Source of the DNA: Ramlibacter ginsenosidimutans
Lineage (GTDB): Bacteria; Pseudomonadota; Gammaproteobacteria; Burkholderiales; Burkholderiaceae_C
Length of the DNA stretch: 64,000 nt
NCBI RefSeq assembly: GCF_016654015.1
Contig: NZ_JAEPWM010000002.1
Span: 124,001 to 188,000, forward strand
Direction: 5' to 3'
Both the position numbers and the translations under genes were made by a program. Shown here piece after piece: positions 10,551 through 25,656 of this stretch (its first letter is position 1; every line of letters begins with the position of its first letter). The notes under the pieces are model-generated. The model was not told where the DNA came from and did no database searches. It worked only from the letters and a program-made list of their open reading frames with translations.

Positions 10551-11012
10551 ATGGCCTTCGGCCAGCTCTCGCTCAAGGGCCGCGCGCTCAAGCTGCTCGC
10601 GGCCCGCGAGCATTCCCGCCACGAGCTCGAACGCAAGCTCGCGCCGCACGAGACCGAAGCCGGCCAGCTGAAGGCCGCGCTCGACGAGTTGCAGGCGCGC
10701 GGCTTCATCGACGAACAGCGCGTGGTCGACTCGGTGCTGCACCGGCGCGCCGGCCGGCTGGGCGCGCAGCGCATCCGCCAGGAACTGCACGCCAAGGGGC
10801 TGGACGGCGAGCGCGTGGCGGCCGCCGTGGCCAGCCTGCGCGACACCGAAGCGCAGCGCGCCCGCGAAGTGTGGCGTCGCAAGTTCGGCGTGCTGCCGGC
10901 GGATGCGGCGCAACGCGTGAAGCAGGCGCGCTTCCTCCTGGCGCGTGGCTTTTCCGGGGAGATCGTCCGGCGGGTGCTGGCCTGCGACCACGAAGAGGAC
11001 GGCGGCGCCTGA
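10551..11012 (+). CDS. recX: Regulatory protein RecX
   Basis: 153-residue all-helical protein of the RecX family, made of tandem three-helix repeats, which binds the RecA filament and limits its growth. Typical segments are LKGRALKLLAAREHSRHELERKL, GFIDEQRVVDSVLHRRA and the final LLARGFSGEIVRRVL. It starts 6 nt after the recA stop and is almost surely translated from the same transcript. Confidence 0.95.
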   Translation: MAFGQLSLKGRALKLLAAREHSRHELERKLAPHETEAGQLKAALDELQARGFIDEQRVVDSVLHRRAGRLGAQRIRQELHAKGLDGERVAAAVASLRDTEAQRAREVWRRKFGVLPADAAQRVKQARFLLARGFSGEIVRRVLACDHEEDGGA

Positions 11013-11083
11013 CGACTCGAGCAAGGGTGGCGTAACTGCAACGCGATGCGCCTGGAGCGGCCGCGCCACGACACAATAGGCCC

Positions 11084-11377
11084 ATGTTCAGCTGGTTCTC
11101 CTCTTCCGAATCGCTGCGTTTCGGCAAGGAACTCGCCGAGTTCGTGCTCCACGAGCTTTCCGGGTCGGCGGCCAAGGGCGAAGCCAAGTTCACCGCCAAG
11201 GCCGAAAAGGCACTCGTGCGGGCCGATCAACGTGTCAGGGACTTCAAGGCCCGTGAACGCCTGAACGTCTACAAGAAGGCCAAGCTGGCCAACGCCTTCC
11301 TCTGGACGCTGCGTGACAGCGGGTGCAGCGCCGAATACGCCGACCAGCTCACCGAGTGGCTGAGCCTGCGTCTCTGA
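11084..11377 (+). CDS. Small conserved-looking protein of unknown function
   Basis: 97-residue soluble, mostly helical, charged protein (many Lys/Glu/Arg), starting MFSWFSSSESLRFGKELAEF. I do not recognise a named domain. There is no signal peptide or membrane segment. It lies between recX and a TPR glycosyltransferase gene whose start is only 3 nt after this stop, so it is probably co-expressed with that gene. The regular amphipathic pattern and tight packing support it being real. Function is not assigned. Confidence 0.65.
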   Translation: MFSWFSSSESLRFGKELAEFVLHELSGSAAKGEAKFTAKAEKALVRADQRVRDFKARERLNVYKKAKLANAFLWTLRDSGCSAEYADQLTEWLSLRL

Positions 11378-11380
11378 TCC

Positions 11381-13231
11381 GTGGGCTGGCTGCGCGACAC
11401 TTTTGGCCGCAGGGGCGCCGCAGCCACCGAGCGGCCTGCCTCCGCCGAGCCTCTCGTGGCGGCGACCGACTGGCGCAAGCGCGGCAACGATGCGCTCGCT
11501 GCCGGGGACTTCGCTGAAGCGGCGCGCTGCTACGAGCAAGGCGTGCTGGCGAGTCCGCAGGACGCCGCGCTTCGCCTGAACCTGGGCTTCGTGCTGCTGG
11601 AGCAAGGGCAGTTCGCCCCGGCGGCCGAACGCCTGCGCCAGGCGCTGGCGCTGAGGCGCCCCGATGACGGGTGCGCGCTGCACGAGGTGCACTACCTGCT
11701 GGGCCGCGCCCGTGCCGGCTTGGGGCAGCACGTGGAAGCGGTGGCCAGTTTCGAGGCGGCCTTGCGCGCGCAACCGGCGTTCGCCGAGGCGCTGGAAGAC
11801 GGCGCGCGTAGCCTGCACTCGCTCGAGCGGCACGCGGAAGCCGCGGAGTGGATCCAGCGGCTGCTGGCCTTGCGGCCGACGTACTTCAACCGGCTTCTCC
11901 TCGCCACCGAGCTGAACGCCTCCGAGCGCCATGCCGAAGCCGCTGCCCTGCTCGACGCGCTCTGCGTCGAAGAGCCGACCAACGCCGACGCCACATTGCT
12001 GCGCTTCAGCGCGTTGATCAAGACCGGACGCCATGCAGAGGCGCTGGAAGAGACGGATCGAGCGATAGCCGTCCATGGCCGCAGCGCCAGCTTGCTCGCG
12101 AATCGCTCCGTGCCTCTGGAGCGGCTGGGTCGCTGCCAGGAGGCGCTGGACTGCATCGAGCAGGCGCTGGCGCTGGAGCCGGCCAATCGCGTCGCCCTGG
12201 TGAATCGGTGCACCGTGCTGACGCAGCTCCTGCGGTTGCCGGAAGCCATCCAGGCCGGTGAAGAGGCGCTGAAGTCGCTGCCGGAGGACGCGGAAGTCCA
12301 CCTCGCCTTGAGCATCGCGCTGCTGATGCGCGGGGACCTGCAGCGTGGCTGGCAGGAGCACGAGTGGCGCCGGCGCAGCGCGGCCACGCGCGGCAAGCTG
12401 CTGCAACTGGAAGGCAAGCGCATGTGGGCAGGCGAGAGCCTGCAGGGCCGCACCATCTTCCTCCATGGCGAGCAGGGGTTCGGCGACAACATCCAGTTCG
12501 TGCGCTATGTCCAGCCGATCGCGCAGCAAGCGCAGAGCGTGGTGCTGATCGTGCCCGCTGCGCTCGAGTCGCTGGTCGCCCGCTCCTTGCCCGCGAATTG
12601 CCGCCTGTTGCCGCAGAACAGCGCCCTGCCGCCGATCGACTTCCACTGCCCGCTGATGACCGTGCCGGCGATCGTGGGTACCACGGAAGACACGATCCCG
12701 TCCCAGGTGCCCTACCTGCATGCCGACGCGGCGTTGCTGCCAGCCTGGCGCGAGCGCCTGGGCAACGGCACCTTGAACGTGGGCATCGCCTGGGCCGGAA
12801 ATCCGAAGCACACCAACGACCACAACCGCTCGATGCCGCTGGCGAGCTTGCGGCGCCTGGATGCGCCGGGTTGTCGCTTCGTCACCGTGCAGCCGGGGCT
12901 GGGCGAGGCGGACCGCGCACTGCTCGCAGACTGGCCAAGCGCGATCGACCTGGGCAGCGAAGTGCGCAGCTTCGACGAGACGGCCGCGCTCATCGAGGCG
13001 CTGGACCTCGTGATCACTGTCGACACCAGCATCGCCCATCTCGCTGGCGCGCTGGGAAAGCCCGTGTGGATGATGCTGGCCCATGTGCCGGACTGGCGCT
13101 GGATGCTGGAGCGCTCCGATTCGCCGTGGTACCCGAGCGCGCGCCTCTACCGGCAGCCGGCACCGCGCGACTGGGCGTCCGTGGTGGACAGCGTGCGCCG
13201 CGACCTGCTCGCGCTTTGCGCCGCCCGCTGA
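11381..13231 (+). CDS. TPR-repeat protein with GT9/OGT-like glycosyltransferase domain
   Basis: 616 residues. Residues ~25-330 are a run of tetratricopeptide repeats (for example WRKRGNDALAAGDFAEAARCYEQG, and the later KTGRHAEALEETDRAI and LERLGRCQEALDCIEQAL). The C-terminal part resembles the nucleotide-sugar-binding half of heptosyltransferase-like enzymes: FLHGEQGFGDNIQFVRYV, IAWAGNPKHTNDHNRSMPL and ITVDTSIAHLAGALGKPVWMML. Such TPR-glycosyltransferases are often protein glycosyltransferases, for instance of flagellins or adhesins, but the target here is unknown. The start is GTG 11381, 3 nt after the preceding stop. The 130 bp that follow, before argC converges, hold nothing recognisable. 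Confidence 0.8.
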   Translation: MGWLRDTFGRRGAAATERPASAEPLVAATDWRKRGNDALAAGDFAEAARCYEQGVLASPQDAALRLNLGFVLLEQGQFAPAAERLRQALALRRPDDGCALHEVHYLLGRARAGLGQHVEAVASFEAALRAQPAFAEALEDGARSLHSLERHAEAAEWIQRLLALRPTYFNRLLLATELNASERHAEAAALLDALCVEEPTNADATLLRFSALIKTGRHAEALEETDRAIAVHGRSASLLANRSVPLERLGRCQEALDCIEQALALEPANRVALVNRCTVLTQLLRLPEAIQAGEEALKSLPEDAEVHLALSIALLMRGDLQRGWQEHEWRRRSAATRGKLLQLEGKRMWAGESLQGRTIFLHGEQGFGDNIQFVRYVQPIAQQAQSVVLIVPAALESLVARSLPANCRLLPQNSALPPIDFHCPLMTVPAIVGTTEDTIPSQVPYLHADAALLPAWRERLGNGTLNVGIAWAGNPKHTNDHNRSMPLASLRRLDAPGCRFVTVQPGLGEADRALLADWPSAIDLGSEVRSFDETAALIEALDLVITVDTSIAHLAGALGKPVWMMLAHVPDWRWMLERSDSPWYPSARLYRQPAPRDWASVVDSVRRDLLALCAAR

Positions 13232-13361
13232 GCGCGCTGCCGACCGGCGATCAGAAGCGCCCTGGCAGCCGCGGCTGCTTCGGCATCTGCATCTCCGCAG
13301 TCCAGGAAGGGGCCGGTGCCGACGCTTCGGCAAAGCGCTGCACTCGCCGCGCGACCTGCCG

Positions 13362-16572: not shown

Positions 16573-16607
16573 AGGCCGGCACCCCACGGGGCGCCGGCCT
16601 TTTTTTC
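16573..16607 (+). terminator. Rho-independent terminator of sucCD
   Basis: AGGCCGGC pairs with GCCGGCCT around an ACCCC/GGGG inner stem, followed by a run of seven T. It begins about 20 nt after the sucD stop. Strong stem plus T tract. Confidence 0.85.
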
Positions 16608-16781: not shown

Positions 16782-19598
16782 GTGAGCACTTCATCTTCCG
16801 CGCGGCGGGGGCAGTTCTGGCGCACGGATGGGTTCGTCGGCGTGCTCGTCGTGGCCGCCACGATGGTGCTGCAGTACTCCACGGATTTCCTGAGCGGCCT
16901 GGAGCGGCGCTTCTATGACTACGCGAGCACGGTCACCGCGCGCCAGCCCTCGGACCGCGTGGCCATCATCGCGATCGACGACTACAGCATCGGCAACATC
17001 GGGCAGTGGCCGTGGCGCCGTGACGTCCATGCCGAACTGATCGACAAGCTGGCGGCGGGCCAGGCCAAGACGATCGTCGAGACGGTCAATTTCGCGGAGC
17101 CGCAAAGCGACCGCGGGCTGGCCTACATCCGCAGGATCCAGGACGCGCTCGCGCCCGCGCATGGCCAGCCGGCATCGGTGGCCGCCGCGACCAAGCTCAT
17201 TCGGGAAGCGGATCAGGCCCTCGACTACGACGCGCGGCTCGCGGCCAGCATCGCGAAGGCCGGCAACGTGCTGGTGCCTTCCTTCTTCACGCTCGGCCAA
17301 CCCCTGGGCAAACCGGACCGGCCGCTGACCGCGGCCGCGCTGAGGAGCGCCCTGGACGGCACGCAGGACTTCGCCATCGAGAGCGTGAGCACCACCCAGC
17401 CGATCGAGGCGATCGCGAACGCGGCCGCCGGCATCGGCCAGCTGAACCTGCTGAACGACGTGGACGGAGCGGTGCGCTCGAACCCGCTGGTGATCGACTA
17501 TTACGGCAAGGCGATTCCATCCCTCGCGCTGCTCGCGGCGGCGAGGAGCCTGAACCTCTCCATCTCGGACATCAGGCTGCATCCCGGCAAGTCGGTGCAG
17601 GTGGGCAAGCTCTGGCTGCCCACCGACGGCGCCGCGCGCGTGCTCCCGCAGTTCTACCGCCCTCGCCCGGGCGGCCGGTCGGCCTTCAGCATCGACTCCT
17701 TCTACGACGTGCTCACGGGCAAGATCCCGGCGTCCAAGTACGCGGGCAAGATCGTCCTGATCGGCGCCACGGCGCAGGGCGTCGGCACCCAGGTCCCCGC
17801 TCCGGGCTACGCCGCGGTGACGCCTGTCGAAATGCTGGCGCACGTGACCTCCAGCATCCTGGAGGAACACTACATCGTCGTGCCGGCCTGGGGCACCTGG
17901 GCCGCGCTGGGCGCCTTCCTGCTGGTGGCCGGCTACGTGATCGCGGTGCTGCCCCGGCTGTCGGCCGGCATGGGCGGAGCGCTCACGGCGCTGCTGTTCA
18001 TCGCTCTCCTGGCGACGGAATTCGGGCTGCTTTCCGGCGCGGCGATCCGGCTCGAGTTCGTGTTCCCGGCGGCGCTGCTGCTGATCGGCCATGTCGCGCT
18101 CACGACCAAGCGCTTCCTCGTCACCGAGGCGGGCAAGGTGCGGGCGGACGAGGAATCCGCCGAGACCAATCGCATGATGGGGCTCGCGCTGCAAGGGCAG
18201 GGCCAGTTCGACATGGCGTTCGACCGCTTCCAGCGCGTGCCGATGAACGACGAGGTGATGGCGAACCTCTACAGCCTCGCGCTGGACTTCGAGCGCAAGC
18301 GGCAGTTCAACAAGGCGGAGGCCGTCTACGCCCACATGGCGCGCTACAACCCGCGCTACAAGGGCCTCGACGCGAAACTGAAGCGCGCCCGCACGCTGTC
18401 GGAGACCGTCATCCTCGGCGGCGGCGCGAGCCGTTCCGGCGGCACGCTGCTGGTGGACGGTGGCGATGTGGAACAGCCGATGCTGGGCCGCTACCGGCTG
18501 GAGAAGGAACTGGGCAAGGGCGCCATGGGCGTCGTGTACCAGGGCCGCGACCCGAAGATCGGACGCGTCGTCGCGATCAAGACATTGGCCCTGTCCCAGG
18601 AGTTCGAGGGCGAGGAACTGGCGGACGCGCGCGAGCGTTTCTTCCGCGAGGCCGAGACGGCCGGGCGGCTGCAGCACCAGAACATCGTCACGATCTTCGA
18701 TGCCGGCGAGGAACACGATCTCGCCTACATCGCGATGGAGTTTCTCCAGGGCCGCGACCTCGTCGACCACTGCAGGGACGGCAACCTGCTGCCCGCCGCG
18801 CGCGTGCTGTCCATCGCGGCGCGCGTGGCGGAGGCGCTGGCCTATGCACACCGGCAGCACGTGGTCCACCGCGACATCAAGCCGGCGAACATCATGTACG
18901 AGCGCGACTCGGACACGGTGAAGGTGACGGACTTCGGGATTGCGCGCATCACCGACGCGAGCAGGACCCGGACGGGGCTGGTGCTGGGCACGCCCAGTTT
19001 CATGTCGCCCGAGCAGCTCGCGGGCCGCCAGGTGGACGGCCGCTCGGATCTCTGGTCGCTGGGCGTCACGCTCTACCAGATGCTCACCGGCGCGCTGCCG
19101 TTCCGGGGCGAGTCGATGGCGCAGCTGATGTACAGGATCGCCAACGAGGACGCGCCGGACTTGCGCCTGGTGCGCCCCGACTTGCCGCAGCGACTCGCCG
19201 AGGTGGTCGGCCGCGCGCTCGCCAGGAAGCCGGACCTGCGCTACCCGGATGGCGACGCCTTCGCGCGCGACCTGCGTGCCGTGCTGGCCGGCTTGCCCAC
19301 GGAATCGGGTGCGCCGGCGCGCGCAGCGGCTTCGTCCTTGCCGTTTGGCGAGACCGGGAATTCCGGCCGCGCCGGCGCCGCTCATGCCAGCGCGGCGACC
19401 GTCGAATCCGCGCCAGTGATGGCGGCAGGCAACGCTTTGCCTGCGCCTGTAACGCCTGTGGCGTCGCGCGGATATGATGCAACCCAGAAAGTCGAGCTCG
19501 CGCCCGCAACGCCGTTCGACAAAACCACCGTGATGAACAAGACGGGGGCTCCGGAAAGGCCCCAGGCCGGCGCCAGGAACACCGGCCAGGAGCCTTGA
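16782..19598 (+). CDS. CHASE2-domain serine/threonine protein kinase
   Basis: About 938 residues. One membrane helix (residues ~17-33) leads into a large extracytoplasmic CHASE2 sensor (~40-360; AIIAIDDYSIGNIGQWPWRRDVHAEL is typical). A cluster of three helices (~366-436), a helical TPR-like linker and a complete Hanks-type kinase domain (~565-836) follow. Kinase motifs are glycine loop LGKGAMGVVYQG, VAIK lysine, HRDIKPANI, DFG in VTDFGIARI and SPEQ. The C-terminal ~100 residues are Ala/Pro-rich and probably disordered. I chose GTG 16782, which has an AAAAGG site 6 nt upstream; TTG 16746 in frame is the alternative. It heads the kinase-phosphatase-FHA-cyclase-phosphodiesterase cluster. Confidence 0.93.
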   Translation: MSTSSSARRGQFWRTDGFVGVLVVAATMVLQYSTDFLSGLERRFYDYASTVTARQPSDRVAIIAIDDYSIGNIGQWPWRRDVHAELIDKLAAGQAKTIVETVNFAEPQSDRGLAYIRRIQDALAPAHGQPASVAAATKLIREADQALDYDARLAASIAKAGNVLVPSFFTLGQPLGKPDRPLTAAALRSALDGTQDFAIESVSTTQPIEAIANAAAGIGQLNLLNDVDGAVRSNPLVIDYYGKAIPSLALLAAARSLNLSISDIRLHPGKSVQVGKLWLPTDGAARVLPQFYRPRPGGRSAFSIDSFYDVLTGKIPASKYAGKIVLIGATAQGVGTQVPAPGYAAVTPVEMLAHVTSSILEEHYIVVPAWGTWAALGAFLLVAGYVIAVLPRLSAGMGGALTALLFIALLATEFGLLSGAAIRLEFVFPAALLLIGHVALTTKRFLVTEAGKVRADEESAETNRMMGLALQGQGQFDMAFDRFQRVPMNDEVMANLYSLALDFERKRQFNKAEAVYAHMARYNPRYKGLDAKLKRARTLSETVILGGGASRSGGTLLVDGGDVEQPMLGRYRLEKELGKGAMGVVYQGRDPKIGRVVAIKTLALSQEFEGEELADARERFFREAETAGRLQHQNIVTIFDAGEEHDLAYIAMEFLQGRDLVDHCRDGNLLPAARVLSIAARVAEALAYAHRQHVVHRDIKPANIMYERDSDTVKVTDFGIARITDASRTRTGLVLGTPSFMSPEQLAGRQVDGRSDLWSLGVTLYQMLTGALPFRGESMAQLMYRIANEDAPDLRLVRPDLPQRLAEVVGRALARKPDLRYPDGDAFARDLRAVLAGLPTESGAPARAAASSLPFGETGNSGRAGAAHASAATVESAPVMAAGNALPAPVTPVASRGYDATQKVELAPATPFDKTTVMNKTGAPERPQAGARNTGQEP

Positions 19599-19608
19599 CC
19601 CGCGAACT

Positions 19609-20394
19609 ATGAACTACGAGTTTTGCATCCGCACGGACCCCGGTCTTGCGCGCGAAAACAACGAGGATTCCGTCACAGTCGACGAGCCGACCCGCCTCGG
19701 GATCCTCGCGGACGGAATGGGAGGCTACAACGCCGGCGAAGTCGCCAGCGGCATGGCCACGACCTTCATCAAGTCCGAGCTCGGGCGCTGGCTGGCGCAA
19801 GCGGGACGCCACGCGAACGGTCGCGAAGTGCGCCGTGCGATGGAAATCTGCGTCGACAACGCGAACCGCTCGATCTTCAACGCGGCCAACTCCAACCCCC
19901 AGTACAGCGGCATGGGCACCACCCTCGTGGTCGGGGTGTTCCAGGACGGGCGCCTGATGCTGGGGCACATCGGCGACTCGCGCTGCTATCGCCTGCGCCA
20001 CGACGCGCTGGAACAGATCACCAAGGACCATTCGCTGCTGCAGGAGCAGATGGATGCGGGCCTGATCACGCCGGAGCAGGCCGCCACGTCGACCAACAAG
20101 AATTTGGTGACCCGCGCCCTGGGCGTGGAGGACGCCGTCCTGCTGGAGGTCAACGAGCACAAGGTCGAACCTGGCGACCTCTTTCTGATGTGTTCCGACG
20201 GACTGTCGGATATGCTGGACGACGATGCCATCGCGCAGATCCTGGTGGGGTCCGGAGGCCTCGAGCAAAAAGCCGTGCAGCTGGTCGACGCAGCGAACGC
20301 GAATGGCGGGCGCGACAACATCTCGGTGCTGCTGGCGCAGGCCAGCAGCGGCTCCAGGAAGCGGGGCTTCATCTCCCGCTGGCTGGGACAATGA
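19609..20394 (+). CDS. PP2C-family serine/threonine protein phosphatase
   Basis: 261-residue cytosolic metal-dependent phosphatase of the Stp1/PppA/PrpC type. Metal-binding motifs are visible: ENNEDS near the start, ADGMGGYNAGEVAS, HIGDSRCYRLR, SDGLSDMLDD and GGRDNISVLL. It should remove phosphates placed by the adjacent CHASE2 kinase, whose stop is only 10 nt upstream. The length is normal for single-domain bacterial PP2Cs. FHA, kinase and phosphatase triads are known from type VI secretion and from cell-envelope control; no secretion genes are present here. Confidence 0.95.
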   Translation: MNYEFCIRTDPGLARENNEDSVTVDEPTRLGILADGMGGYNAGEVASGMATTFIKSELGRWLAQAGRHANGREVRRAMEICVDNANRSIFNAANSNPQYSGMGTTLVVGVFQDGRLMLGHIGDSRCYRLRHDALEQITKDHSLLQEQMDAGLITPEQAATSTNKNLVTRALGVEDAVLLEVNEHKVEPGDLFLMCSDGLSDMLDDDAIAQILVGSGGLEQKAVQLVDAANANGGRDNISVLLAQASSGSRKRGFISRWLGQ

Positions 20395-20440
20395 GGCCGC
20401 CGGAATTACGGGCTAGAACACTGAATCAGAGGAGTCGACC

Positions 20441-21127
20441 ATGCCGAAGATGATCGTTTCGATCGACGGTGTCGTCATCAAGGAAGTGCAGTTGACCAAG
20501 GACCGGACCACGCTCGGACGGCGCCCTTACAACGACATCGTGATCGACAACCTGGCCGTGTCCGGCGAGCATGCGGTACTGCAGCTCGGGGACAATGAGG
20601 TCTTCCTGGAAGACTTGAACAGCACCAACGGGACCTACGTCAACGGCAAGGCGGTGAAGAAGCAGTTGTTGCAAAACAACGATACCGTCGAAATCGGCAA
20701 GTACAAGATCAAGTTCATCAACGAGGTGCCGGGCGCGACCTTCGAGAAGACGCAGATCATCAAGCCGGGCATGGTGCCGCCCATGCCGGCGACGGCGGCC
20801 GGCGCGCCTGCAGGCTCCGCGGCGAAACCTGCGGGCACACCCGCTGCGGCGGGCGAAGCCGCAGCGAATGCCAGCATCAAGGTTCTGTCTGGCGCCGCTG
20901 CCGGACGCGAGGTGCCGCTGGTGAAGGTGGTCACGACCATCGGCAAACCCGGCGTGGCGGTCGCCGCCATCACCAAGCGCTCGCACGGCTTCGTGGTCGC
21001 CCATGTCGAGGGCGCGAACAAGCCGATGCTCAATGGCGCAGCGATCGGGCCGGACCCCGTGACGCTGAAGAACGGTGACATGCTGGAGCTGGCCGGCACG
21101 CAGATGCAGTTTCTGCAGGCGGGCTGA
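20441..21127 (+). CDS. FHA-domain phosphothreonine-binding protein
   Basis: 228 residues. An N-terminal FHA domain (~1-95) has the classic LGRRPYNDIVID, SGEHA and NSTNGTYVNGK motifs that bind phosphothreonine. An Ala/Pro/Gly-rich linker (~105-140) leads to a second, smaller beta-rich domain (~145-228; ASIKVLSGAAAGREVPL, then GAAIGPDPVTLKNGDMLELAG) that looks like a degenerate FHA lacking the STNG signature. The start is ATG 20441, with an AGAGGAG site 6 nt upstream. It probably reads out the adjacent kinase/phosphatase balance. It overlaps none of its neighbours; the cyclase starts 27 nt later. Confidence 0.93.
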   Translation: MPKMIVSIDGVVIKEVQLTKDRTTLGRRPYNDIVIDNLAVSGEHAVLQLGDNEVFLEDLNSTNGTYVNGKAVKKQLLQNNDTVEIGKYKIKFINEVPGATFEKTQIIKPGMVPPMPATAAGAPAGSAAKPAGTPAAAGEAAANASIKVLSGAAAGREVPLVKVVTTIGKPGVAVAAITKRSHGFVVAHVEGANKPMLNGAAIGPDPVTLKNGDMLELAGTQMQFLQAG

Positions 21128-21154
21128 CGGCCCGCCACGGCGCACCCGTCTCGC

Positions 21155-23404
21155 ATGGGGACGCTTGCCAGGCACTGGCCGCGCATCGCGATCACGCTGG
21201 CCCCGCTGGTGTTTGCGCTGCTCCACGCGGTGGGCGCGCTTCCCATCGGTTTCCTGAACCGCCTCGACGCCATCCTCTACGACGCGCGGCTGCGCGCGAG
21301 CATGCCGCGCAGCATGGACCCGCGCGTGGTCATCGTCGACATCGACGAGAAGAGCCTGGCCGAAGTCGGGCGCTGGCCCTGGGGTCGCAACAAGCTCGCC
21401 GCCATGCTCGACGAGCTGTTCGAGCGCCAGCAGGTGGCGCTTGTCGGCTTCGACGTGGTGTTCGCCGAGCCGGACGAGAGCTCGGGCCTGCAGCGCCTGC
21501 GGGAGCTTGCGCAGGCGGACCTGAGGGACGCCGCCGGCTTCCGCGAGCGGGTGGCGCAGCTGCAATCCAGCCTGGACTACGACGCGAGCTTCGCCCGGGC
21601 GCTCCAAAAGCGTCCCGCCGTCCTCGGCTACTACCTCACCAGCGAGCGGGATGCCCGCAAGAGCGGCCTGCTGCCGGCGCCGGTGATGACCCGCGACAGC
21701 CTGAAGGGCCGCCCGATCGCCTTCTACAGCTTCCAGGGCTACGGCTCCAACATTCCCCAGCTCGCACAGGCCGCCCCGGTGGCGGGCTACTTCAATTCCA
21801 TCACGGACGGGGACGGCGTCGTGCGCTCCATCCCGCTGCTGGCGGAATATGGAGGCGCGTACTACGAATCGCTGGCGCTCGCCATGTTCCGCGTTCTGGC
21901 CGGGCATCCGGCCGTGGAACCGGGTTTCCCGCGCGAGCACTTCGTGGGCCGCAGCTATCCGGGGCTGGACAGCGTCCTGCTGAAGCTCGGGTCGCGGCAG
22001 GCGGCGATCCCGGTGGACGACAAGGTGGCGGTGCTCGTCCCGTTCCGCGGCCCGGGCGGCCCGATGGGCGGCTCGTTCCGCTACGTGTCCGCCTCGGACC
22101 TGATCGCGAAACGGCTGCCAGCGGGCGCGCTCAAGGACAAGATCGTGCTGGTGGGCACCACCGCGCCCGGGCTGTTGGACCTGCGCGTCACGCCGGTGGG
22201 CGCGACCTACCCCGGCGTGGAAGTGCACGCGAACGCGGTCTCGGGGCTGCTCGAGGGCCGATTGCTCGTGAAGCCCGACTACGCCATGGGCTACGAGGTA
22301 GTCGTGCTGATGGTCGCGGGCCTCGCGCTCGCGTTCCTGCTGCCCATGTTGTCGGCCACCGTCGCCGTGCTGGTGAGTTCGGCCGTCATGACGGGCCTCC
22401 TGGCGCTGAACTACTTCCTGTTCAACACCTTCGGCCTGGTGCTGCCGCTGGCCTCCGCCCTCGTGATGGCGGGCGCCGCATTCGCGCTGAACATGAGCTA
22501 TGGCTACTTCGTCGAGAGCCGCAGCAAGCGTGAGCTCGCCAACCTGTTCGGAACCTACGTCCCGCCTGAACTCGTCGACGAGATGGTGAAGGACCCGGAC
22601 AGCTACAGCATGAAGGCGAGCAACAAGGAGCTGACCGTCATGTTCTGCGACATGCGCGGCTTCACCAGCATGTCGGAGCGCATGGAGCCCACGCAGCTGC
22701 AGGAGCTGCTCAACGCGGTGTTCAGCCAGCTCACCGAGATCATCCGCGCCAACCGGGGCACCATCGACAAGTACATGGGCGACTGCGTCATGGCGTTCTG
22801 GGGCGCGCCTGTGGAGACGCCGATGCATGCGCAGCTGGCGGTGAAGACGGCGCTGCAGATCACGCAGGCGGTGCGCGCGATCAACCAGGAGCACCGCGCC
22901 AAGGGCATTCCGGACATCGGCGTGGGCATTGGGCTGAACACCGGCACGATGTGCGTGGGCGACATGGGCTCGGACGTGCGCCGCAGCTACACGGTGATCG
23001 GCGATGCCGTGAACCTGGGCTCCCGGCTCGAGGGGCTCTGCAAGGTGTATGGCGTGGACATCGTGGCGAGCGAGTCCACGCGCCAGCAAGCGCGCGAGTT
23101 CAGCTGGCTGGACCTCGATCGCGTCCGCGTCAAGGGCAAGCAGGAAGCGGTGGCCATCTTCCACCCGCTGGGTCCCTCCGGCGCGCTGGATCCGCAGGCC
23201 GCCGACGAACTCCGCGCGTGGGGCGCTTTCCTGCAGGCGTACCGCGCTCAGGACTGGGAAAAGAGTGAGCTGCAGCTGGTGAACCTGCAGAGGTTGGGCG
23301 CCAAAAAGTACCTTTACGAGCTGTACGCCCAACGTGTAGCCTCGATGCGGTTGCTGCCATTCGACCCGGGATGGGATGGCGCGACCCAGTTCGAGACGAA
23401 ATAG
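21155..23404 (+). CDS. CHASE2-domain class III adenylate/guanylate cyclase
   Basis: 749 residues. An N-terminal helix precedes an extracytoplasmic CHASE2 domain (~40-360; VVIVDIDEKSLAEVGRWPWGRNKLAAML). Three membrane helices (~377-448) and a class III nucleotide cyclase domain (~482-668) follow. The metal-binding Asp pair is in FCDMRGFTSMSE and YMGDCVMAFWGAP. A lysine at IDKYMGD and a threonine in SYTVIGDAVNLGSRLEG fit ATP rather than GTP use, so adenylate cyclase is favoured. The sensor layout is the same as that of the kinase at the head of the cluster. A phosphodiesterase gene follows after 15 nt. Confidence 0.93.
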   Translation: MGTLARHWPRIAITLAPLVFALLHAVGALPIGFLNRLDAILYDARLRASMPRSMDPRVVIVDIDEKSLAEVGRWPWGRNKLAAMLDELFERQQVALVGFDVVFAEPDESSGLQRLRELAQADLRDAAGFRERVAQLQSSLDYDASFARALQKRPAVLGYYLTSERDARKSGLLPAPVMTRDSLKGRPIAFYSFQGYGSNIPQLAQAAPVAGYFNSITDGDGVVRSIPLLAEYGGAYYESLALAMFRVLAGHPAVEPGFPREHFVGRSYPGLDSVLLKLGSRQAAIPVDDKVAVLVPFRGPGGPMGGSFRYVSASDLIAKRLPAGALKDKIVLVGTTAPGLLDLRVTPVGATYPGVEVHANAVSGLLEGRLLVKPDYAMGYEVVVLMVAGLALAFLLPMLSATVAVLVSSAVMTGLLALNYFLFNTFGLVLPLASALVMAGAAFALNMSYGYFVESRSKRELANLFGTYVPPELVDEMVKDPDSYSMKASNKELTVMFCDMRGFTSMSERMEPTQLQELLNAVFSQLTEIIRANRGTIDKYMGDCVMAFWGAPVETPMHAQLAVKTALQITQAVRAINQEHRAKGIPDIGVGIGLNTGTMCVGDMGSDVRRSYTVIGDAVNLGSRLEGLCKVYGVDIVASESTRQQAREFSWLDLDRVRVKGKQEAVAIFHPLGPSGALDPQAADELRAWGAFLQAYRAQDWEKSELQLVNLQRLGAKKYLYELYAQRVASMRLLPFDPGWDGATQFETK

Positions 23405-23419
23405 ATAGGGGCGTTGCCA

Positions 23420-24211
23420 ATGCGCGTGCGGGTGCTGGGCTGTTCCGGCGCGATCGCGAGGGACTGCCGGACGACGTCCTTCCTCATCGACGGCGACGTA
23501 CTCGTCGACGCGGGCACGGGCGTCGGCGACCTGTCCCTGGAGCAGATGCGGGGCGTCCGCGACGTCTTCCTCACCCACTCGCACCTGGACCACATCGCCG
23601 CGCTGCCGCTGATGGTGGACGCGGTGGCTTCGCAGCTCGCAGAACCGATCCGCGTGCACGCGCTGCCCGGCACGATCACGGCCCTGAAGGCGCACATCTT
23701 CAACAACGTGATCTGGCCGGACTTCAGCCGCATCCCCACGCCGCAATCGCCCTTCGTGTCCTTCCACGAGGTGCAGGTGGGACAGAGCCTTGCGCTGCAC
23801 GGCAAGGTCGTCGAGGTGCTGCCGGCAGTGCACACGGTGCCGGCGTGCGGCTATGCCGTCAGTGCGGGTGCAGGCTGCTGGGTGTTCACCGGCGACACCG
23901 AGCGCAACCCGGCGTTCTGGAGCCGCATCAACCAGCTCGATGTGGCGGCCCTCGTGATCGAGACCGCCTTCAGCAACCGGGAAGAAGACCTCGCGAGGCG
24001 CAGCCTGCACCTGTCGCCCGTCGCCCTGGCCGGGGAACTCGATCGCATCGACAAGCGCAAGCGCTTCCCGATCTACATCACGCACACCAAGCCTGCGGAA
24101 ACCGCGCTGATCATGGCGGAGATCCAGCGCTTCGAGCAGGCGCAGCCGTCCGGCATGAACGTGAGCCACGACATCCGCTGGCTGCGCGCGGGCGAGGAGT
24201 TCGAGCTGTGA
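23420..24211 (+). CDS. Class II 3',5'-cyclic-nucleotide phosphodiesterase (MBL fold)
   Basis: 263-residue metallo-beta-lactamase-fold hydrolase of the class II cyclic nucleotide phosphodiesterase family. The metal-binding [14 protein letters not shown] motif is near residue 55, further ligands are in [10 protein letters not shown] and FTGDTERN, and [10 protein letters not shown] lies near the end. It would open the 3',5'-cyclic phosphate of the product made by the cyclase encoded immediately upstream, so synthesis and breakdown are paired in one operon. I start at ATG 23420; a TTG two codons upstream is possible. No signal peptide is seen, so it acts in the cytoplasm. Confidence 0.88.
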
Positions 24212-24375: not shown

Positions 24376-24392
24376 TTGGCATGGCGCTTGCA
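24376..24392 (+). promoter_or_regulatory. Sigma-54 promoter of pilin 1
   Basis: TTGGCATGGCGCTTGCA has the GG-N10-GC spacing of RpoN promoters and matches TGGCAC-N5-TTGCA closely. It is 34 bp upstream of the pilin start. Upstream TTGTC motifs at about 24296 and 24341 are possible PilR enhancer sites. RpoN/PilR control of pilin genes is established in Pseudomonas. Confidence 0.8.
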
Positions 24393-24425
24393 CTACCTCC
24401 TCACTTCGTCAACCTGGAGGTCTCA

Positions 24426-24893
24426 ATGAAGCGTCAATTTCAACAGGGTTTCACCCTGATCGAACTGATGATCGTGGTCGCGATCATCGGTATCCTGGCC
24501 GCGGTGGCCCTGCCCGCATACCAGGACTACACCAAGCGTGCCAAGATGTCCGAGGTGGTCCTCGCCGCGTCCGCTTGCCGCACGACCATCACCGAGGTGT
24601 ACCAGTCCGGCTCGCAGACGTCCGTGCAGCCCGGCAACTGGGGCTGCGAATCGACGACGGCCGCGTCCAAGTATGTTGCGTCGATCGCCACCGACGGCAA
24701 CGGCATCGTGACGGTGACCTCCCAGAACATCGGCCCCGGCGCCAACGGTGACGTGACTCTGATCCCCGCTGACAGCAACGGCAGCACGATGACCTATAGC
24801 AACCAAGCCCAGACCATCTTCAAGTGGGTCTGCGGCGGCACCGGAACGACGGTCACGCCGAAGTACCTGCCGGGCTCCTGCCGCGGCGGCTGA
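24426..24893 (+). CDS. pilA: Type IV major pilin, copy 1
   Basis: 155-residue type IVa prepilin. A short basic leader (MKRQFQQG, 8 residues) is followed by the processing site G-F and the conserved [22 protein letters not shown] helix with Glu5 of the mature protein. Four cysteines (51, 74, 136, 152) are present; the last two would close the C-terminal D-loop. An AGGAGGT-like site (CTGGAGGTCTCA) precedes the ATG. The product is assembled into pili for twitching, adhesion and DNA uptake. It differs from copy 2 at five positions: F5L, V45I, D109A, P145A and Y147F. Confidence 0.97.
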
Positions 24894-24911
24894 TCAGCAT
24901 GCATGCTGCAG

Positions 24912-24934
24912 AGGGGGCCGCCAGGCCCCTTTTT
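24912..24934 (+). terminator. Terminator after pilin 1
   Basis: GGGGCC-GCCA-GGCCCC hairpin followed by five T, 20 nt after the stop. It is identical in the second copy. Confidence 0.85.
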
Positions 24935-25135
24935 GCTTTTTGGGCTCGCCGTTCGCGCGCCAGACGGGGCGATGCCGTTCCGGGCGCGGTATGCGCTGGA
25001 ATGCGACGGACCGGCCAGCAGCGGGTTCAGTCGGTCGGGAGCGAAGACGCGCAAATTTGTCGGCCGAACGACGCTTTGCGTCGACCGGACGGCTTCAGGT
25101 CTCGTCGAACGTGCCAAGAAGTTCACGAAACGGGG

Positions 25136-25152
25136 TTGGCACAGGGCTTGCA
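25136..25152 (+). promoter_or_regulatory. Sigma-54 promoter of pilin 2
   Basis: TTGGCACAGGGCTTGCA, again GG-N10-GC and an even better -24 element (TGGCAC) than copy 1, 37 bp upstream of the second pilin start. The separate promoter means that each copy can be expressed on its own. Confidence 0.8.
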
Positions 25153-25188
25153 ATACTTCCTTGCTTCTTCATCAACCTGGAGGTCTCA

Positions 25189-25656
25189 ATGAAGCGTCAA
25201 CTTCAACAGGGTTTCACCCTGATCGAACTGATGATCGTGGTCGCGATCATCGGTATCCTGGCCGCGGTGGCCCTGCCCGCATACCAGGACTACACCAAGC
25301 GTGCCAAGATGTCCGAGGTGATCCTGGCCGCGTCCGCCTGCCGCACGACCATCACCGAGGTGTACCAGTCCGGCTCGCAGACGTCCGTGCAGCCCGGCAA
25401 CTGGGGCTGCGAATCGACGACGGCCGCGTCCAAGTATGTTGCGTCGATCGCCACCGACGGCAACGGCATCGTGACGGTGACCTCCCAGAACATCGGCCCC
25501 GGCGCCAACGGCGCGGTGACTCTGATCCCCGCTGACAGCAACGGCAGCACGATGACCTATAGCAATCAAGCCCAGACCATCTTCAAGTGGGTCTGCGGCG
25601 GCACCGGCACGACGGTCACGGCGAAGTTCCTGCCGGGCTCCTGCCGCGGCGGCTGA
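25189..25656 (+). CDS. pilA: Type IV major pilin, copy 2
   Basis: 155-residue prepilin nearly identical to the preceding one. It has the same leader length, G-F cleavage site, hydrophobic assembly helix and four cysteines. The five differences include D109A and P145A/Y147F, the latter two inside the C-terminal disulfide loop that is usually surface-exposed and antigenic. It has its own sigma-54 promoter and terminator. The glycan island begins directly after its terminator. Confidence 0.97.

Follow-up and report, generated by a model that had tools for sequence, protein, structure and literature searches.

A five-gene signaling cluster upstream of two type IV pilin genes

We analyzed a stretch of 64,000 nucleotides from Ramlibacter ginsenosidimutans (Burkholderiales; hereafter the window), in which five closely spaced genes occupy positions 16782 to 24211 of the forward strand. 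A first-pass annotation had taken them for signaling genes, and their coordinates, Pfam matches and intact residues bore this out. They encode, in order, a Ser/Thr protein kinase composed of a CHASE2 sensor, a conserved linker region and the kinase domain (16782 to 19598, with an in-frame GTG start), a PP2C-type phosphatase of the Stp1/IreP type (19609 to 20394), a protein with an N-terminal FHA domain, a disordered linker and a second beta domain (20441 to 21127), a CHASE2-containing class III adenylate cyclase predicted to make cyclic AMP (cAMP; 21155 to 23404), and a protein of metallo-beta-lactamase fold that is probably a 3′,5′-cyclic-nucleotide phosphodiesterase and would break cAMP down (from 23414 or 23420 to 24211). 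The intergenic gaps are 10, 46, 27, and 15 bp. The sucC-sucD genes lie upstream of the kinase gene, and two tandem type IV pilin genes on the same strand (24426 to 24893 and 25189 to 25656) follow the phosphodiesterase gene, which agrees with the annotated position of the cluster directly upstream of pilins.

The first three genes make up the writer, eraser, and reader of a phosphorylation system, as had been proposed, with catalytic or binding residues kept across orthologues. The kinase scored 168 bits for CHASE2 (cut-off, 26.3) and 184 bits for Pkinase in Pfam, and its catalytic Lys, Glu, HRD-Asp, and DFG-Asp are present in all orthologue rows (118/118 or 119/119). It is not a PASTA kinase of the PknB type: it remained below the cut-off of the NCBIfam PknB_PASTA model (303.4 versus 450 bits, with the kinase part only), and its Pfam matches at E ≤ 1e-3 included no PASTA family. 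A segment that follows the membrane part and precedes the kinase domain (18153 to 18329) looks TPR-like by eye, with no Pfam TPR match. It is almost as conserved as the kinase domain and is likely a docking surface. The phosphatase exceeded the Pfam cut-offs for PP2C_2 (54 bits) and PP2C as well as that of the Stp1/IreP model NF033484 (248.2 versus 230 bits), and its five metal-binding Asp residues are invariant (128/128 or 129/129 rows).

The FHA domain (Pfam FHA, 86.6 bits) has the fold that binds phospho-Thr, and the corresponding Gly, Arg, Ser, His, and Asn residues are invariant or nearly so across orthologues. Its closest relatives by sequence are the FHA domains of OdhI and GarA; by fold, in matches that spanned residues 1 to 98, FhaA-type proteins, GarA, and OdhI tied. 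In the AlphaFold model, both domains of the protein are mostly above 90 in predicted local distance difference test score (pLDDT), and linker residues 99 to 107 and 111 to 140 are below 50. The C-terminal beta domain (residues 144 to 226, window positions 20870 to 21118) carries a conserved Gly-Lys-Pro, Arg180, and Asn198.

The annotation had also proposed a maker and a breaker of cyclic nucleotides. The cyclase scored 197.5 bits for CHASE2 against the same cut-off and 89.7 bits for Guanylate_cyc. Asp499, Asp543, Lys539, Thr613, and Asn620 are present in 91/91 rows and Arg624 in 91/93; we take these to be the two metal-binding Asp residues, the substrate-binding Lys and Thr, and the transition-state Asn and Arg. 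By residue pattern it would be a class III, IIIb-like enzyme, Lys539 together with Thr613 presumably fitting the class IIIb adenylate cyclase label. Its best match among solved structures was a bacteriophytochrome-cyclase chimera (6fht), followed by Pseudomonas aeruginosa CyaB (3r5g). The maker thus has its residues intact; the breaker role is likely but unproven. The fifth protein exceeded the Pfam cut-offs for Lactamase_B_2 and for PDEase_II (47.2 versus 23.7 bits, the best stretch covering 79 of the 340 profile positions), and its HxHxDH and other metal ligands are kept in 71/71 rows, as in class II cAMP phosphodiesterases. PDE1 was its best sequence match among solved structures, and yeast PDE1 its best fold match, tied with ELAC, YhfI, and RNase Z proteins. 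We conclude that the fifth gene likely encodes a cyclic-nucleotide phosphodiesterase, and that the two enzymes likely form a cAMP loop.

Conservation of the cluster

To define its distribution, we searched 150 genomes of Burkholderiales for the kinase (E ≤ 1e-90) and the cyclase (E ≤ 1e-30). Kinase matches were obtained in 56 genomes and cyclase matches, paralogues included, in 87. The loci of all 56 kinase-bearing genomes were read; from the 87 genomes with a cyclase match we fetched 60 places with long matches in 59 genomes, and another 20 places were added to cover exceptional kinases, contig splits, and an additional cyclase. In four genomes (G010, G052, G103, and G131), the genes lie on two contigs, which we did not join but treated as a single unit.

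The kinase, phosphatase, and FHA genes occur together in 52 of the 56 genomes; of the rest, three have the kinase alone near sucCD and one has a contig that ends after the phosphatase gene. The complete five-gene order is found in 39/56, and in two more (41 altogether) the phosphodiesterase and an HD-GYP protein share one open frame. The gene order is thus conserved in many Burkholderiales genomes, a point that the annotation had proposed to check, and a chance neighborhood was rejected as an explanation. Among kinase-bearing loci with a cyclase, 41/43 have the phosphodiesterase, the two fusions included. The fused frames (oriented positions 10818 to 13232 of locus L085 and 10715 to 13093 of L090; 805 and 793 aa) each match both the metallo-beta-lactamase phosphodiesterase and the GAF/HD-GYP protein, so that two enzymes predicted to degrade cyclic nucleotides are naturally fused there. 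In three loci of one family (L112, L115, and L123), the kinase gene stands alone upstream of sucC-sucD, without phosphatase or FHA genes.

Two further genes, for an ATPase and an HD-GYP protein, are present at 36 of the 56 loci, in many relatives between the phosphodiesterase and pilin genes, and both are absent from the window locus. Of these 36 loci, 17 have the full five genes plus a pilin, 14 have the full five with a pilin missing from the DNA read, and 5 lack the cyclase or the phosphodiesterase; four more of the 56 carry the ATPase without the HD-GYP gene. Seven genes make up the most frequent version found in the order, and a pilin often follows them, so the five-gene boundaries are too narrow.

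In a class-level sample of 274 genomes, 65 matched the kinase, including the window genome and a member of its family (G049). From the 63 others, all outside the order, we fetched 40 loci in 39 genomes: the kinase, phosphatase, and FHA genes are together in 34, and a cyclase lies within the fetched DNA in 17, in convergent orientation in 10 of those 17. In the family, 60 genomes were sampled, the window genome included, and 20 loci were fetched; other genomes with only the kinase half were judged from match positions alone. A scan of named loci covered at least 80 loci among the matches listed, many of them other kinases; among these matches, L224 and L225 (Pelomonas), L227 (Roseateles), and L257 have the phosphodiesterase without the cyclase. 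The kinase half and the cyclase half are, by gene content, separable modules, because kinase and cyclase often occur apart and the phosphodiesterase persists without the cyclase.

A candidate phospho-switch in the kinase and the FHA protein

The linker of the FHA protein is poorly conserved except for one motif, FEKT(M/Q)(V/I)(L/I), which in the window reads FEKTQII (20741 to 20761) and contains Thr104, the predicted phosphorylation switch. In the alignment, this column holds Thr in 109 of the 113 occupied rows (118 rows in total), Ser in 3, and Ala in 1. A related motif precedes the kinase domain (SETVILGG, 18399 to 18422), with its Thr540 (numbered from position 16788) as a predicted site of autophosphorylation and FHA docking; Thr is present in 88/118 rows and Ser in 6. 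A further candidate FHA ligand, FDKTTVM, lies in the C-terminal tail of the kinase (19515 to 19535), where the 9 rows that reach this column all have Thr, and related motifs were recognized by eye in five other long kinase tails examined.

FHA proteins contain the Thr pattern more often than expected (3.31 per 1,000 aa versus 0.15 in shuffled sequences), as do kinases (0.84 versus 0.14). The pattern is near or below background in the phosphatases, phosphodiesterases, accessory ATPases, HD-GYP proteins (0.25 versus 0.21), SucC, SucD, and pilins. The strict linker pattern miscounts somewhat, as it matched 95/116 FHA rows and several missed rows are close variants; two of its matches fall within the FHA domain (L116 and L160), yet both proteins carry the linker motif, and L118 was scored as Thr by the alignment although its linker motif is lost. 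The juxta-kinase pattern was missing in 39/118 kinase rows, 8 of them because the kinase start was not located, and one match seems false by eye. We read this pattern as a kinase that would write on itself and on the FHA linker, with the FHA domain reading both. The sequences support the predicted kinase-to-FHA wiring: of the proteins tested, the kinases and FHA proteins alone are enriched in the motif.

Two CHASE2 receptors

Both the kinase and the cyclase are CHASE2 receptors (PF05226), as annotated. Their CHASE2 regions share 29% identity over 401 residues, and they gave the only two CHASE2 matches in the genome at E ≤ 1e-3. Among kinases with CHASE2, 43/50 in the order and 11/12 in the family have a neighboring cyclase. 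Conversely, kinases whose match begins past most of CHASE2 have none in 5/5 order and 10/11 family genomes (15/16). These counts were made by hand, the Fisher table for the order (43/7/0/5) excludes G123, whose contig ends after the phosphatase gene, and the lineages are related, with few independent events among them. Since the kinase CHASE2 and the neighboring cyclase are present or absent together, the sequences suggest a single cue for both receptors. The idea that one cue drives both outputs, put forward in the annotation, gains indirect support in this way; the separate occurrence of the two halves tells against tight coupling.

Association with type IV pilus genes

We searched for pilins with a hidden Markov model of prepilin N-termini, built from the pilins of these loci, in the 47 order loci with at least 500 bp downstream (L130, without a kinase, included). 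A pilin gene lies downstream on the same strand in 29/47 and upstream in 0/47. The first pilin follows the last gene of the unit at a median distance of 291 bp (31 order loci; range, 107 to 2,540). Outside the order, 33 loci contained an FHA gene and offered 500 bp or more of downstream DNA, and the search found a pilin in none of them. The co-occurrence with pilins, which the annotation had proposed to check, thus holds within the order and not in the loci read beyond it. The cluster is a real, conserved signaling operon of known modules, tied to type IV pili within the order.

In L037, the accessory ATPase consists of GAF, MshEN, and T2SSE domains, and the HD-GYP protein of GAF and HD-GYP domains; HD-GYP was also found in L051 and L056. 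At the other loci, the two proteins were identified from their resemblance to those of L037. Although PilB/GspE-like, the ATPase stayed below the PilB cut-off (458.8 and 495.1 versus 675.65). It is present in 12/60 family genomes and in the metagenome-assembled genomes of Ramlibacter and Polaromonas that are nearest among the matches listed (L192, L193, and L216). The window genome gave no match to this protein at E ≤ 1e-180; what matches it had were to the ATPase half only. From this distribution, the pilins of the window probably became direct neighbors of the unit by loss of the two accessory genes.

Both pilins of the window (pilin 1, Pilin 54.3 and N_methyl 39.2 bits; pilin 2, Pilin 52.6 bits) have their own sigma-54-type site, matched by consensus only: TGGCAT-N5-TTGCA at 24377 to 24392, 49 bp before the first pilin start, and TGGCAC-N5-TTGCA at 25137 to 25152 before the second. 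Such sites precede 19/53 pilins of relatives, versus 14/4,760 random windows and 5/591 signaling-gene starts. Because these sites precede both genes, the pilins probably have their own transcripts from sigma-54 promoters, as is the case for PilR/RpoN-controlled pilins elsewhere. The link to pili in this organism would then be regulatory and not cotranscriptional, given these promoters and the absence of the two accessory genes from the locus. The two pilins are 96.8% identical in protein and 96.5% in DNA over 511 bp; the region from 24377 to 25656, both genes with their promoter regions, is a recent tandem duplication. Between sucD and the kinase gene, we found no sigma-70 site in a promoter scan and one terminator-like site (16588 to 16601), a weak signal given 5 such sites in the scanned region versus 5.6 expected. 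The first-pass annotation had overlooked this site, the sigma-54-type sites, and the two extra genes of many relatives.

Comparison with known systems

We found no description of this five-gene unit in open-licence papers of PubMed Central (PMC), in line with the annotation, and as far as literature searches reach it is undescribed. In the threonine phosphorylation pathway of type VI secretion systems, PpkA-PppA-Fha1, a transmembrane Ser/Thr kinase, a PP2C phosphatase, and an FHA protein are encoded together. The window unit shares this writer, eraser, and reader logic but has CHASE2 as its sensor, with cyclase, phosphodiesterase, and frequently pilus genes as partners. Its FHA protein scored well below the cut-off of the type VI secretion family TagH, TIGR03354 (38.6 versus 120.25 bits).

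Binding of a phospho-Thr tail to the protein's own FHA domain is a known switch in GarA and OdhI, where the phospho-Thr motif is N-terminal. Besides its FHA domain, to which theirs are the closest by sequence and tied for closest by fold, the window protein shares with them a conserved E-x-T-hydrophobic motif placed in a disordered tail that suits intramolecular binding. It differs in that it begins at the FHA domain, with the motif C-terminal to it and an extra beta domain at the C terminus, and it remained below the cut-off of the OdhI model NF041660 (61.3 versus 200 bits).

P. aeruginosa uses CyaB and Vfr for cAMP control of type IV pili. The window cyclase resembles CyaB, its second-best solved match, in the Lys and Thr residues that fit class IIIb, and differs from it in having a CHASE2 sensor and in being encoded with a phospho-switch and a phosphodiesterase. 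The papers cited below are known to us from excerpts. CyaB is activated by bicarbonate (PMC8230467). A CHASE2 sensor joined to a cyclase, as in the window, is found in CyaD1, CyaD2, and CyaK of Sinorhizobium meliloti, which feed a CRP-type regulator; the cue reported there is a plant ribosomal protein, acting through an outer-membrane protein, and, unlike for the window unit, the excerpt mentions no kinase-PP2C-FHA or pilus genes (PMC13001267). In Campylobacterota, a CHASE2 adenylate cyclase is likewise clustered with a cAMP phosphodiesterase, but the excerpt mentions no kinase, PP2C, or FHA protein (PMC9239204). Bdellovibrio DgcB (PDB 6hbz, 6hc0, and 6hc1), according to partial records, is similarly a second-messenger (GGDEF) protein in which an FHA domain binds a phosphorylated tail, but it is a diguanylate cyclase and a single polypeptide. 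CHASE2 has also been reported in a histidine-kinase operon of Burkholderia (PMC5192318), among the domains tethered to cyanobacterial kinases (PMC2877116), and in a diguanylate cyclase (PMC13075795); the cue that it senses was mostly unknown as of 2016 (PMC5192318).

Discussion

We interpret the cluster as a membrane-sensor operon that would tune type IV pili, a function deduced from sequence to which we give a probability of about 0.5. The kinase and the cyclase would each read the periplasm through CHASE2, probably for the same kind of cue. Once active, the kinase would phosphorylate Thr104 of the FHA linker as well as the Thr540 motif that it carries itself; the phosphatase would strip the phosphates from both. 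The FHA domain would dock on phospho-Thr540 of the kinase and then close on its own phospho-Thr104, the protein switching between a free and a self-bound state as GarA and OdhI do. In parallel, the cyclase would raise cAMP and the phosphodiesterase would lower it, cAMP acting on pili via a CRP/Vfr-type regulator. In the fuller version of the locus, pilus assembly would come under the influence of cyclic di-GMP (c-di-GMP) and of the switch through the ATPase, with its GAF and MshEN domains, and the HD-GYP protein; in R. ginsenosidimutans, the pilins would be read from their own sigma-54 promoters.

Several observations weigh against this interpretation. Two of the five order kinases without CHASE2 have a cyclase elsewhere in the genome (G032 and G069). 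In family genomes at E ≤ 1e-90, the kinase and cyclase occur together in 14/60, the kinase only in 9, and the cyclase only in 13; the 14 with both are only slightly above the 10.4 expected by chance. Of the 60 cyclase places fetched in the order, 19 have no adjacent kinase, and 6 of those 19 have the phosphodiesterase. Several family loci keep phosphatase, FHA, and cyclase genes behind sucCD and a gene that we take to be TerC-like, with no kinase gene found there. The linker Thr is lost or changed in six kinase-bearing order loci (Ala in L057, Ser in L113, and the motif gone in L118, L119, L121, and L122); it is also lacking in L150 and L206, and is lost in 4/9 kinase-less family loci, versus kept in 10/10 kinase-bearing ones (Fisher, 0.03, a rough value, as related genomes are not independent). 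The window genome holds five PF00211 places, i.e., four cyclase-domain places besides the cyclase of the unit; with its four Pilin places it has 19 cNMP-binding matches, 17 above cut-off, and by these PF00211 and cNMP-binding counts other cyclases and several CRP-type proteins exist. No pilin was present in the DNA read at 18/47 order loci, and the pilins close to the unit in L272 lie on the opposite strand, as they do in the kinase-less L076. Finally, the Thr pattern is not enriched in the cyclases (0.14 per 1,000 aa versus 0.15 in shuffled sequences). Gating of the cyclase by the FHA protein or by phosphorylation, which the annotation had offered as an option, is therefore not supported by the motif counts, and binding of the FHA protein to the cyclase through this motif was rejected for now. 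The commonest cyclase match (9/96 rows) is probably buried because it adjoins a metal-binding Asp; the HD-GYP rows likewise have one common match (8/56).

As a side observation, phosphatase and FHA genes stand behind the TerC-like gene with no kinase gene found there in eight loci (L272, L273, L275, L276, L281, L282, L284, and L285); another kinase may stand in at such places.

The complete chain of events strikes us as doubtful: two matched CHASE2 receptors would sense one periplasmic cue and drive both a GarA-type FHA switch and the cAMP pair, the full form would add c-di-GMP via a GAF/MshEN PilB and the HD-GYP protein, and a non-phospho surface of the FHA protein would gate the cyclase or the ATPase. 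A little easier to credit, if still tentative, is that two independent modules travel together, the kinase-phosphatase-FHA switch and the CHASE2 cyclase-phosphodiesterase pair, with separate targets for each and no cross-talk between them. The kinase, phosphatase, and FHA genes do occur without a local cyclase in 9/56 order genomes (four followed by a pilin only, five with the phosphodiesterase and others), the cyclase occurs without the kinase in the family genomes and order places counted above, 10 of the 40 loci fetched from beyond the order have it in convergent orientation, and the Thr motif is not enriched in the cyclase or the phosphodiesterase. Full independence is harder to reconcile with the 10- to 46-bp gaps in the window, with a cyclase retained near the kinase outside the order despite rearrangement (17/40 loci), and with the joint absence of the kinase CHASE2 and the neighboring cyclase. 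We think it unlikely that the fifth protein has this fold but a different nuclease or phosphodiesterase activity, whether like that of RNase Z or on cyclic nucleotides other than cAMP, in which case the cAMP loop would not be closed; the above-threshold PDEase_II score, PDE1 as best sequence match, and the presence of the gene at nearly all kinase-bearing order loci with a cyclase, fusions among them, argue otherwise.

GarA and OdhI act on 2-oxoglutarate dehydrogenase, and the switch could instead serve central metabolism through the adjoining sucCD, its pilin neighborhood being incidental. The FHA domain is nearest to those two proteins by sequence, and sucCD lies upstream of the unit in the window, as it does in 11 other genomes among the 56 of the order, and in L112, L115, and L123 it follows the lone kinase. 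But the fetched DNA lacked sucCD in 41/56 order genomes, where upstream flanks were mostly about 4 kb long, and in all 40 loci from beyond the order, PilB-like ATPase and pilin neighbors are commoner, and a weak terminator-like site separates sucD from the kinase gene; we regard such a role as very improbable.

How phospho-Thr signaling, cAMP, and c-di-GMP tie together in the control of type IV pili is, in our view, an open question. This operon, interpreted here as tuning type IV pili, brings two CHASE2 receptors, a phospho-switch, and a cAMP pair together in one conserved place, often with c-di-GMP-related genes and a pilin, and it offers a single predicted phosphosite to test.

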